Part shown: positions 3,685 to 40,766 of the stretch, piece after piece
How positions within the stretch are numbered: position 1 is the first letter of the stretch
Layout: every line of letters begins with the position of its first letter
DNA from: Oscillospiraceae bacterium
Lineage (GTDB): Bacteria > Bacillota > Clostridia > Oscillospirales > Ruminococcaceae
Length of the DNA stretch: 64,000 nt
Reading direction: 5' to 3'
NCBI GenBank assembly: GCA_015067175.1
Contig: SVMX01000004.1
Location: forward strand, 62,001-126,000
Program-made: the position numbers and the translations under genes
The notes under the pieces: generated by a model
Told to the model about the DNA's origin: nothing
What the model saw: the letters and a program-made list of their open reading frames with translations, nothing else
The model's database searches: none

Positions 3685-4827
3685 ATGGGCAAGGGCTTTT
3701 TAATAAGCAAGCAATTCACACAGGGCGATAGCGAAGCGTCAAGAAATCTGTACACCCTGCGAACAGAATTTTTTGCCTTGTGCATCGTCATGCTGATAGT
3801 TTTGCTGAATGCACTCGATATCTTTATAATAGACGATACACTCATGTATGTCAGCCTCGGCATAGCTTCGGCCGATGTCATGGTGACCGCACTGATAATG
3901 AACTGGTGTGATTGCAGAGCGCCATGGGTGAAATACATGGTAATATTCTCCTTTGTGACGCTTATCACGATAATGGGTGTCGCGCTTACCTATCAAGCAG
4001 TGTTGGCAGGATTTCTGCCTCTGCTCTGCGCCGCACAATACCGAAGCCGCAAGATGATAATTTATACATATATCCTTTGTATATTAAGCTGCTTCATCTC
4101 GGTCATGGGCGGTTATTTCATGGGCCTTTGCGACGCAAATATGCTGGTGCTTACTGTAGGCACGATACAGAACTACTACGACCCCGAAACAGGCATGGCT
4201 CTTTTCGGAGAGATAAATCAAAATCCATGGCTGTCGCTGCCTTTGTATTATGCTTTTCCGCGCTGTCTGATACTTCTCAGCGGAATACCGATAATAAATC
4301 ACATTTCCGATGTTATTTCCCGAAACGCTGTCCGCGAAGCAGAGCTTAAACAGCTCAGCGAGACCGACAGCATGACGCGTCTTTACAACAAAAACAAGTA
4401 TCTTTCCATGATGAAAGAATACTACCCGTCTGTGAAACAGCTTGGCGTTATATTCTGGGACGTGAACGGTTTAAAGGCTATCAATGATGAGGTCGGTCAC
4501 GAATACGGTGATTACCTTATCTCAAACGTTGCGGCGTCTGTCCATGAGGTAGCTGTCGAGCACTCCATGGCATACAGGGTCGGCGGCGACGAGTTTGTTA
4601 TGATAGTAGAAAACGCTGACGAAGCAATGCTCGAAAGCATCATCGCAAAGTGGAACAGAAGCATGGAGATAAAAAACCAAGGCTCAAAGATAAAGTTGTC
4701 TGCGGCTGTTGGTTATGCTCTGGGCTCGGGTGCTGATATCACCCGTATCGTAGGAAGAGCCGACAGCGAGATGTATCGCAACAAAGCCGAAACCAAGCTT
4801 GCGGCAAGCAAAACAACAACCGAATAA
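3685..4827 (+). CDS. Membrane-anchored GGDEF-domain protein (putative diguanylate cyclase)
   Basis: Multiple hydrophobic segments, then DSMTRLYNKNKY ... YRVGGDEFVMIVE. Confidence 0.92.
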   Translation: MGKGFLISKQFTQGDSEASRNLYTLRTEFFALCIVMLIVLLNALDIFIIDDTLMYVSLGIASADVMVTALIMNWCDCRAPWVKYMVIFSFVTLITIMGVALTYQAVLAGFLPLLCAAQYRSRKMIIYTYILCILSCFISVMGGYFMGLCDANMLVLTVGTIQNYYDPETGMALFGEINQNPWLSLPLYYAFPRCLILLSGIPIINHISDVISRNAVREAELKQLSETDSMTRLYNKNKYLSMMKEYYPSVKQLGVIFWDVNGLKAINDEVGHEYGDYLISNVAASVHEVAVEHSMAYRVGGDEFVMIVENADEAMLESIIAKWNRSMEIKNQGSKIKLSAAVGYALGSGADITRIVGRADSEMYRNKAETKLAASKTTTE

Positions 4828-4831
4828 AGAT

Positions 4832-5075
4832 AAACCGCCGAGTTTTTCTCGGCGGTTTCAGACCGTCGAAAAAGTCCCGTTGGGACTTTTCCGCCGAAAC
4901 ATCCGCCCTGCGCGCACTCATTGTCGGCGATGCCGACAATTCGCACACTGGTGCGGATAGAAGTGTTTTTTGACCGAAGTAAATTCGGTCAAAAAAGTTA
5001 TCAAAAACGCCCGCTTCGCGGGCAAAAACATAGTTTTTCGACAAGCAGAAACCGCCGAGTTTTTCTCGGCGGTTT
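4832..5075. repeat. Cluster of seven consecutive hairpins bounded by two identical 27-nt terminator-like palindromes
   Basis: AAACCGCCGAGTTTTTCTCGGCGGTTT at 4832-4858 and 5049-5075; inner palindromes at 4870-4890, 4920-4940, 4942-4955, 4966-4996 (13-bp perfect arms) and 5009-5023. Lies between convergent genes. Confidence 0.85.
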
Positions 5076-17835: not shown

Positions 17836-18228
17836 TCAATGACAGCCATGGCTTCCGCAGCTATGTGAGCCGCAGTTATGCGCTTCGCCGTGCTCGTGAT
17901 GGCTGCACTTTACATCGGGCGCAAAATTCAGTGTTCCCGATAAAAGCGCCCTTACCGCGTCATCAGCGCTGCCGCTTACTCCGCCGTAAAGCTTTATGCC
18001 TGCCTGCATAAGCGCATTCTGCGCTCCGCCGCCTATGCCGCCGCAAACCAAAGTATCGACCTTATTCATGCTAAGAAATCCGGCAAGCGCGCCGTGACCG
18101 CTGCCCATTGTAAATATGACCTGCTCTTTTACTATTTTACCGTTCTCAATATCGTAAAGCTTGAACTGCTCGGTGTGTCCGAAGTGCTGAAATATCTGTC
18201 CGTTTTCGTATGTAACTGCAATTTTCAT
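17836..18228 (-). CDS. NifX/NifB-associated FeMo-cofactor-type binding protein with His/Cys-rich tail
   Basis: MKIAVTYENGQIFQHFGHTEQFKLYDIENGKI, VDTLVCGGIGGGAQNALMQAGIKLYGG; tail CSHHEHGEAHNCGSHSCGSHGCH. Confidence 0.85.
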   Translation of the reverse strand: MKIAVTYENGQIFQHFGHTEQFKLYDIENGKIVKEQVIFTMGSGHGALAGFLSMNKVDTLVCGGIGGGAQNALMQAGIKLYGGVSGSADDAVRALLSGTLNFAPDVKCSHHEHGEAHNCGSHSCGSHGCH

Positions 18229-18324
18229 TATGTTAGTTCCTTTCCAAAGCACCGAAAGCTAGGCGCGTTTTTTATATTTTACCACGTTTTGATCTTTGAT
18301 GCAAGCACAATTATAGTTTTAACA

Positions 18325-19659
18325 TCAAAAATATCCGTACTTTTTACGTTTCGCGGCAAGGAATATCAAAGTCAGAACAAATGCCATTATCTCTGCGGCG
18401 ATGATTGCGGAGAATATACCGTCAACGCCCCATATAAGCGGCAGCACAAACAGCGCCGTTACTTGGAACACAAGCGTTCTGAGAAAAGAAATTATCGCTG
18501 ATACCAGACCGTTGTTCAGCGCCGTAAAAAACGCCGAGCCATAGATGTTGAAGCCGCAAAGCAGGAACGCAAGCGAGAATATCATAAATCCGCGAAGCGT
18601 GAGATCAAACAGCGCCTTGTCATAGCCTACAAAAATAAGCGTGAGCGGATATGCAAGCACCTCTGCAAGCGCCGTCATAACAAGCCCCGCAGAGCCGATT
18701 ATGATCGCGCTTTTCTTCAGCAGACTTTTAAGCTCGTCCTTGTTCTGCGCGCCGTAGTTGTAGCCAACTATCGGAGCGGAGCCTATGGAATATCCGATAA
18801 ACGCCGCAACGAAAATAAAGTTCACATACATGATAACGCCGTATGCAGAAACTCCATCCTCGCCTGCGTACTTCATAAGCTGAAAATTATACAGCATACT
18901 TACAAGCGACATAGAGATATTGCTCATAAGCTCGGAAGACCCGTTCGCGCAGGCTTTGAGCAGCGGACGCGCTTCAAGACGCGTTTTGCGCAGCCGTAAA
19001 AGGCTGCCGTTGTCGCGCGCAAAATAAAAGAACGGTACAAAGCCTCCTACGAACTGGCTTATCACAGTAGCAGAGGCTGCTCCCGCAAGACCCCAGCCGA
19101 AAGCACCCACAAACAGCAGGTCGAGAATGATATTCGTAACGCCCGCCATTACTGTCACAACAAGGCCAAGCTTCGGCTTTTCCGCAGTGATGAGAAAGCT
19201 TTGAAATGCGTTTTGTAGCATAAATGCGGGCGAGCCGATAAGCACCATTCTGCCGTAAAGCACGCAATAAGGAAGCAGGGTTTCGTTTGCTCCGAGAAGC
19301 ACTGCGACAGGCTCTATCAATACAATTCCGACAATTGCAAGTATCACGCCCGAAATGATATCAAGTGTGATAAGCATGGTGAAGTAGCGATTGGCGCGTT
19401 CTCCGTCGCGCTCACCAAGCGTTTTTGCAACAAGCGCTGAGCCGCCCGCACCAAGCATAAATCCAAATGCGCCAAGCACCATGATAAAAGGCATGATAAG
19501 ATTAAGCGCCGCAAACGGGGTCTTTCCCACGAAATTAGACACGCAAAGTCCGTCCACCACTCCGTAAATAGAAGTGAATATCATCATTATTATAGACGGC
19601 AGCACAAACCGTATAAGCTTTTTATATGTAAAATGATCTGAAAGCTTTATCTCCTGCAT
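18325..19659 (-). CDS. MATE family efflux transporter
   Basis: Twelve hydrophobic segments; MQEIKLSDHFTYKKLIRFVLPSIIMMIFTSIYGVVDGLCVSNFVG...NLIMPFIMVLGAFGFMLGAGGSALVAKTLGE. Confidence 0.92.
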   Translation of the reverse strand: MQEIKLSDHFTYKKLIRFVLPSIIMMIFTSIYGVVDGLCVSNFVGKTPFAALNLIMPFIMVLGAFGFMLGAGGSALVAKTLGERDGERANRYFTMLITLDIISGVILAIVGIVLIEPVAVLLGANETLLPYCVLYGRMVLIGSPAFMLQNAFQSFLITAEKPKLGLVVTVMAGVTNIILDLLFVGAFGWGLAGAASATVISQFVGGFVPFFYFARDNGSLLRLRKTRLEARPLLKACANGSSELMSNISMSLVSMLYNFQLMKYAGEDGVSAYGVIMYVNFIFVAAFIGYSIGSAPIVGYNYGAQNKDELKSLLKKSAIIIGSAGLVMTALAEVLAYPLTLIFVGYDKALFDLTLRGFMIFSLAFLLCGFNIYGSAFFTALNNGLVSAIISFLRTLVFQVTALFVLPLIWGVDGIFSAIIAAEIMAFVLTLIFLAAKRKKYGYF

Positions 19660-19825
19660 AACTACTCCTTTATTGCGCAAAAAAAGCGCCCGAAGCTTCT
19701 TAAAAGAAGCACTGACCGAGCGCACTCGACATCTTATCGACCGTTCCGCTGCGGCGGACAGTCCTCCGATGACCTATTCAATTCACAAGCCTACTAAGTA
19801 TAGCACATATATATTAATATGTCAA
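19660..19825 (-). promoter_or_regulatory. Putative cis-regulatory leader of the MATE gene (promoter, hairpin, candidate leader peptide, intrinsic terminator)
   Basis: Minus strand: TTGACA (19825-19820), 17-nt spacer, TATACT (19802-19797); hairpin GACUGUCCGC-CGCA-GCGGAACGGUC (19763-19739); GCGCUCG...CGGGCGC hairpin (19723-19686) followed by seven U, just before the RBS and ATG at 19659. Confidence 0.7.
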
Positions 19826-19832
19826 GGGGCGG

Positions 19833-20540
19833 TCACGCGTTCTTGAAAAGCTCCGACAACTCCTCACCTGTTATCTCTCTGCATTCGCCTGAGGACAAGC
19901 TTTCGTCAAGCAGTATTCCGCCCATGCGAACACGTCTGAGATGTGTGACCTTGTTGCCTACTGCCTCCATCATACGCTTTACCTGATGGTATTTTCCCTC
20001 ATGAAGCACAAGTCTTACAACATCGCTTTTTTCTGTCATGATAAGCCTTGCAGGCAGGCATTTTTCGCCGCCGTCTATGGTGATCCCCGCGGAAAACAGC
20101 TCGATATATCTCTCCTCCGCAGGCTTTTCAAGAGTTACTGCATATTCCTTTTCGATGTGGTTTTTCGGCGACAGCATTTTATGAGCCAAAGCGCCGTCAT
20201 CGGTTATAAAAACAAAGCCCTCTGTATCCTTGTCCAGTCTGCCTGCGGGAAAAAGCCCTTTGCGCCTTAGCTCCTCAGGGATAAGCTCCAGCACCGTTGA
20301 GCTTAATCCGTCGCGCGTAGCGCAAACAACGCCCTGCGGCTTGTTGAGCATTATATAGACAAACTGCTTGTAGGAAAGCGCCTTTCCGCGTACAGCAACG
20401 ATATCCCTTTCGGGGTCTATCTTTGCGTCGGCTGTTTTCACTACCGCGCCGTTTACGGTTATCTCTGATTTTTTAATCATCGCCTTTGCGTCGGAGCGCG
20501 AGACCCCTGCCTGCTCAGAAACAAATTTATCAATACGCAT
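19833..20540 (-). CDS. RsuA-family 16S rRNA pseudouridine synthase
   Basis: MRIDKFVSEQAGVSRSDAKAMIKKSEITVNG (S4 domain), PAGRLDKDTEGFVFITDDGALAHKMLSPKNHIEKEY. Confidence 0.92.
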   Translation of the reverse strand: MRIDKFVSEQAGVSRSDAKAMIKKSEITVNGAVVKTADAKIDPERDIVAVRGKALSYKQFVYIMLNKPQGVVCATRDGLSSTVLELIPEELRRKGLFPAGRLDKDTEGFVFITDDGALAHKMLSPKNHIEKEYAVTLEKPAEERYIELFSAGITIDGGEKCLPARLIMTEKSDVVRLVLHEGKYHQVKRMMEAVGNKVTHLRRVRMGGILLDESLSSGECREITGEELSELFKNA

Positions 20541-40465: not shown

Positions 40466-40766
40466 TTGACAAAAAACAGAGTGCGTGCTATAATAACATC
40501 AGAATATGTTGAAATGCGTTGATAGGAAATAAAGCTTTGACGTGGTTTTCAGAGAGCCGCCGTTTGGTGCGAGGCGGTAACGCGGCATGGCCATAGCTCC
40601 TCCTTGAGCAGGATCGCTGAACCTCACAGTAGGCGGTCACGGGTTCTCCCGTTACAGAGATACACATTGTTAGATGTGGACGAGTGGGCGAGGTTTTATA
40701 CCCGCCAATGAGAGTGGTACCGTGGAGTTTACAGCTTCATCTCTTTATGAGATGGGGCTGTTTTTG
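40466..40766 (+). ncRNA. T-box leader (predicted tRNA-Leu, specifier CUC) of leuA
   Basis: Promoter TTGACA-N17-TATAAT (40466-40494); AGAGAGCCGCCGTTTGGTGCGAGGCGG stem I top; GAACCTCAC specifier region; T-box GAGAGTGGTACCGTGG at about 40710-40725; terminator at 40731-40766. Confidence 0.88.

Follow-up and report, generated by a model that had tools for sequence, protein, structure and literature searches.

The window, by which we mean the whole 64,000-nucleotide stretch of bacterial DNA analysed, carries on its minus strand a gene for a MATE family efflux transporter, preceded by a leader with its own promoter and an intrinsic terminator (Table 1). A pseudouridine synthase gene (19833-20540) ends just before the promoter, so that the leader is able to start a new transcript, likely near position 19790. 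At the other end, 19 nt separate the U-run of the terminator from the ATG of the MATE gene. A gene for a Dinitrogenase iron-molybdenum cofactor family protein (17836-18252) follows downstream on the same strand. The sole Rfam match in the window is a T-box leader at 40510-40747 on the plus strand (115.2 bits).

A sequence-only reading of this DNA had proposed an uncharacterised cis-regulatory RNA or a leader-peptide attenuator, and the elements that it described are all present: the promoter, the hairpin GACUGUCCGC-CGCA-GCGGaACGGUC, the CAUC/GAUG pairing that encloses it, the open reading frame (ORF) MSSALGQCFF and the terminator hairpin with seven U before the MATE start. It overlooked a third hairpin, P3, which overlaps the 5' arm of the terminator in such a way that the terminator reuses the 3' strand of P3, and the complementarity between the loops of P2 (CGCA) and P3 (UGCG).

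Table 1. Features of the leader and of the MATE gene, in window positions
Feature	Position	Strand	Evidence or remark
Promoter TTGACA-N17-TATACT, TG before the -10 (extended -10)	19797..19825	minus	11/12 consensus matches
Aptamer-like RNA core, conserved, one copy in own genome	19716..19775	minus	covariance model R2, 80.7 bits
Helix P1: CAUC (19771-19768) with GAUG (19733-19730)	19730..19771	minus	compensatory changes in relatives
Junction GGAGG between P1 and P2	19763..19767	minus	near invariant by column counts; its final G is at the same time the first of P2
Facing junction GAUAA	19734..19738	minus	column counts
Helix P2: GACUGUCCGC/GCGGaACGGUC, loop CGCA (19753-19750)	19739..19763	minus	folding and covariation
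Helix P3: CGAG-UGCG-CUCG, loop UGCG (19724-19721); putative antiterminator	19717..19728	minus	covariation
ORF MSSALGQCFF*	19700..19732	minus	AUG in 3' strand of P1; judged incidental to the RNA
Intrinsic terminator	19679..19723	minus	stem GCGCUCG (19723-19717)/CGGGCGC (19692-19686), inner hairpin 19710-19695, then seven U (T in the DNA, 19685-19679)
Ribosome-binding site AAGGAG of the MATE gene	19665..19670	minus	read in sequence
MATE family efflux transporter, 444 aa, regulated gene	18325..19659	minus	PF01554, E 1.9e-38; TIGR00797 above cut-off

The conserved core and its distribution

The folding energy of the whole leader is unremarkable against chance (z = -1.26, with -0.82 for the aptamer alone and -2.28 for the terminator), and conservation therefore becomes the decisive test. 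Indeed, it is conservation and covariation in homologs, not folding energy, that lift the leader above chance. A search for the core pattern in 61 related genomes found two congeners with the same core, and a BLAST search of 43 congeners brought in a third; in G008 and G031 the gene that follows the motif is likewise a MATE gene of this type. In the four congener sequences CAUCGGAG, GCCGCAGC and AAGAUGUCG are near invariant, while stem letters vary. The promoter layout of the window also precedes the motif in the congeners L003 and L004, and the internal hairpin of the window terminator is absent from that of L003. In the L004 copy (G029, 1500-1641) the aptamer is near-identical (81 bits), but P3 is degenerate and the contig ends without a terminator having followed; this copy is possibly decaying or on a different platform. 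Across the wider family, the P2 stem is variable with a tetraloop that is mostly CGCA, an additional hairpin is inserted in P2 in 37 of 103 listed relatives, and P3, with the consensus CGRG-NNNN-CYCG, is only four pairs long.

Of 391 genomes of the class, 15, among them that of the window, were matched strongly (E < 1e-3) by a covariance model built from the four congener sequences (R1), and in nearly all of them a terminator follows immediately after the core. A scan of named public genomes with the pattern CATCGGA-N25-55-AGATGTCGRGTGNGCYCG matched at least 118 stretches. Those listed are mostly from Clostridia, with others from Bacilli, Bacteroidales, Actinobacteria, Spirochaetes and Elusimicrobia; they include isolates (Odoribacter lunatus, Limosilactobacillus oris, Sporobacter termitidis, Clostridium methylpentosum and Massilimicrobiota) as well as MAGs of Bacteroidales, Actinobacteria, Sphaerochaetaceae and Elusimicrobiales, and the source, where the title of a listed match names one, is mostly gut or rumen. 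The class is patchy, with matches in only 4 of 399 genomes of an even phylum sample. The model R2 readily finds two further relatives known from BLAST, L250 (Subdoligranulum variabile) and L251, both of which stand before MATE genes. The viral collection scanned with the pattern yielded no match; a 'phage' hit, H42, is probably bacterial DNA, since in this unverified scaffold from faeces the motif stands in front of a MATE gene. Tandem copies of the motif occur in L117 (2192-2273 and 2654-2734), L072, L074 and L130. An ORF of about 80 aa with no Pfam match lies between the two copies in L117 and L074, and the last tandem copy in L117, L072 and L130 precedes an ABC exporter.

Neither the leader nor its relatives matched any of the Rfam 15 covariance models (T-box, yjdF, guanidine-I and others) at gathering score, in agreement with the earlier reading, which could not fit the leader to the TPP, SAM, guanidine, preQ1, yybP-ykoY or T-box consensus. 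No description of the motif was found in the open literature; an earlier listing in a supplement, a subscription paper or a motif repository is possible. The leader is a genuine element and belongs to a widespread family of structured RNAs that Rfam 15 lacks.

The genes downstream of the motif are nearly all of an export or detoxification type: the 90 downstream proteins of the listed copies include 42 MATE transporters, 18 ABC exporters, 10 cytidylate-kinase-like proteins (Cytidylate_kin2, PF13189), 5 GNAT and 3 MFS proteins. These MATE, ABC, MFS, GNAT and kinase-like genes point to a xenobiotic, an antibiotic or a toxic metabolite, possibly an amine, as the candidate ligand; from the same gene set we infer a class of compound that would be toxic, exported and perhaps acetylated or phosphorylated. 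Tetracycline-efflux names for the ABC gene came from NCBIfam matches far below the cut-offs and were not used for this guess. In six GNAT-linked copies (L043, L048, L049, L084, L103 and L121, classed by sequence motif) the P3 loop is invariably UGAG, not UGCG, and this subtype may mark a ligand variant. An unusual target is found in L093 (Massilimicrobiota sp. An134, 4785-4844), where the motif precedes a gene of glycosyl hydrolase family 1.

Covariation and the two expression platforms

The stems P1, P2 and P3 are kept in homologs and covary. In 100 distinct listed sequences, 98.2% of the cells are paired and 11 pairs show changes on both sides (0 of 500 shuffles as high), and pairing falls to about 30% when the partner is slid by one column. 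Because the scan pattern fixes parts of P1 and P3, the count was repeated on 22 sequences that had mainly been obtained independently of the pattern; here 97.0% of cells were paired, with 12 double-change pairs and 0 of 500 shuffles as high in four of five measures, in an alignment that was fitted to the covariance model's own structure and so leans towards pairing. P1 shows compensatory changes to CGUC/GACG in L038 and to CACC/GGUG in L049. At the one P3 pair where the pattern permitted A-C, the listed copies have A-U (50), G-C (45) and G-U (5), never A-C. The loops of P2 and P3 are complementary as CGCA/UGCG (64 listed copies), CGUA/UGCG (13), CCCA/UGGG (2) and CUUA/UGAG (1), and have one mismatch as CGUA/UGAG (11) and CGGA/UGCG (4). 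Full pairing in 80 of 96 copies, compared with 75.3 by shuffling (7 of 5000 shuffles as high), lends modest support to a contact between the P2 and P3 loops, which we consider likely from these sequence comparisons.

In 83 of 99 listed copies the 5' arm of the terminator begins inside P3, where shuffling of the DNA downstream predicts 6.6. A second platform, with a long terminator that takes the 3' strand of P2 and P1 as its 5' arm, is found in nine listed copies (L094, L138, L100, L104, L126, L078, L144, L114 and L041; 0 of 200 shuffles as good), a count to be read as at least nine; these copies are mostly from Bacteroidales, the others coming from Sporobacter, Elusimicrobiales and a further genome of the Clostridia. 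Minimum free energy folds of 3'-truncated window transcripts contain P1 and P3 at most lengths up to 19688, with an exception at 19700, and from 19685 onwards the terminator takes the place of P3. Comparative evidence shows that the predicted core and the intrinsic terminator are mutually exclusive on both platforms.

This mutual exclusion makes it most likely that the RNA switches transcription on in response to a toxic small molecule. Without ligand the terminator would win, and transcription would stop before the MATE gene. Binding of a small toxic molecule to the core would stabilise P1/P2 and the P3 hairpin, perhaps through the contact between the P2 and P3 loops; P3 would then hold the 5' arm of the terminator and RNA polymerase would read through, so that the exporter would be made when its substrate is present. 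What generally characterises riboswitches is found here, namely a covarying aptamer before functionally related genes and an expression platform that is exclusive with it. We therefore hold with good confidence that the leader is a transcription-attenuating candidate riboswitch of a class not in Rfam, acting as a ligand-ON exporter switch. The structural and regulatory part of this claim is strong, and direct sensing of a small molecule by the predicted aptamer is likely, although a protein or another trans-acting factor could give the fold the same stability. The uncharacterised cis-regulatory RNA, one half of what the sequence-only reading had proposed, is thus strongly supported by the lack of an Rfam match, wide conservation, covariation and a terminator that excludes the fold.

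Alternative readings of the leader

The unremarkable folding energy would suit an accidental fold in a spacer that holds a simple terminator, a reading that is refuted by deep conservation, covariation and the common gene context and whose probability we regard as negligible. The other half of the earlier proposal was a ribosome-mediated attenuator, in which MSSALGQCFF (or a homologous peptide) is translated and drug-stalled ribosomes block the terminator, as at bmrCD of B. subtilis. GGAGG does stand upstream of the AUG in nearly all listed copies, and control of this kind typically acts on ABC exporters; nevertheless, a whole hairpin lies between GGAGG and AUG, and start, frame and stop of the ORF all vary. 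Among relatives not selected by the pattern, the start codon is ACG in L038 (with the CGUC/GACG compensation in P1) and GUG in L046; in L049 the frame is lost through an insertion. In the listed copies the stops are scattered from codon 6 to beyond codon 35, with no C-terminus in common. Moreover, in copies not selected by the pattern the changes in the first codons are nearly all non-synonymous and follow the base pairs: serine/glycine and leucine/proline change jointly at codons 3 and 5 (AGU-CUC to GGU-CCC), as A-U to G-C, because these codons pair in P3. The comparison of stems and frame that had been suggested for MSSALGQCFF thus came out in favour of the stems: the RNA is conserved across the aligned copies and the predicted peptide is not. 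Leader-peptide attenuation finds no support here, and we consider it improbable.

A further reading would have an RNA-binding protein, and not a small molecule, stabilise the antiterminator. The conserved single-stranded GGAGG and GAUAA could be read by a protein, and sequence data alone do not separate the two kinds of effector; this alternative is nonetheless unlikely, as the core is patchily spread over several phyla before unrelated exporter families, a distribution that a shared ligand fits better than a shared protein, and no conserved regulator gene was noticed in neighbourhoods viewed unsystematically.

Returning to the small-molecule switch, we rate the motif as a new class of a familiar kind of element, the riboswitches. 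For the family as a whole, it is fairly probable that we are dealing with a widespread, mainly gut-bacterial riboswitch class in which one common toxic compound (a drug, a dietary compound or a microbial metabolite) is sensed and induces MATE, ABC and MFS exporters, unrelated to one another, together with GNAT and kinase-like modifying enzymes, with two terminator platforms according to lineage and a possible UGAG ligand variant. Orphan riboswitches have repeatedly uncovered unexpected biology, as with fluoride and guanidine. Here several families of gut-bacterial efflux and modification proteins, unrelated to one another, are tied to a single RNA sensor, and the ligand of that sensor would consequently name the shared substrate of many 'multidrug' transporters. 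The minimal RNA, about 60 nt plus the terminator, makes a ligand screen straightforward.

Comparison with known regulatory systems

The yjdF (azaaromatic) riboswitch is thought to sense varied toxic compounds and to induce a detoxification protein (PMC7266159), and the proposed sensing of a toxic compound before a detoxification target is a likeness to it; the targets differ, however, and neither the window nor 17 relatives gave an Rfam match to yjdF. The bmrCD genes of B. subtilis are under ribosome-mediated attenuation (PMC4191407). A terminator before a multidrug ABC exporter and induction by toxic compounds are features of bmrB-bmrCD that the motif resembles, whereas the motif conserves an RNA core without a conserved leader peptide.

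A close parallel is guanidine-IV (GGAM-1 or mepA motif), for which MATE targets, loop contacts and a terminator are also cited (PMC7736828; PMC12186494), and with it Gd4v, a guanidine-IV variant of near-identical sequence with an orphan ligand, which stands mostly before PRK07324 aminotransferase genes and has MATE and GNAT targets in mostly gut bacteria of several phyla (PMC9788692). That the window motif is itself one of these, sensing guanidine or the Gd4v ligand, was an early strong lead: the motif, too, stands before MATE and GNAT genes, is enriched in the gut as is Gd4v, has an orphan ligand, and would combine two contacting hairpin loops, an intrinsic terminator and ON logic. Architecture, targets and a comparison with sugE leaders led us to reject it, and we now regard it as very improbable. 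The guanidine-IV aptamer takes in the loop of the terminator itself, where its conserved nucleotides sit, and the commonest target is sugE (PMC7736828). The terminator loops of our motif, by contrast, differ in both length and sequence across about 100 listed copies; the conserved letters lie in P1, P2 and P3, the conserved loop being that of P3, a separate small hairpin that the terminator would destroy. None of the 90 downstream proteins of the listed copies is SugE (COG2076/PF00893), PnuC or an aminotransferase, the last being the main target of Gd4v.

Four sugE leaders of the phylum panel without a guanidine-I match (L190, L199, L202 and L249), guanidine-IV-like by the text of the papers and not by a published alignment, have a conserved UAGGCC in the terminator loop, and R1 and R2 (for L249, R2) gave no match to them at E <= 10. 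A hairpin loop GCUGCCGAG occurs in two of the four, and the guanidine-IV class did not come up in an Rfam 15 scan of L190, L199 and L202. The pattern scan for further leaders of this type, which yielded L249, was too loose, its matches being equally common in a reversed control; the leader of a Paraclostridium sugE gene (H1) looks guanidine-I-type on inspection. By the tests available, the window motif would work rather like guanidine-IV and is not a member of it.
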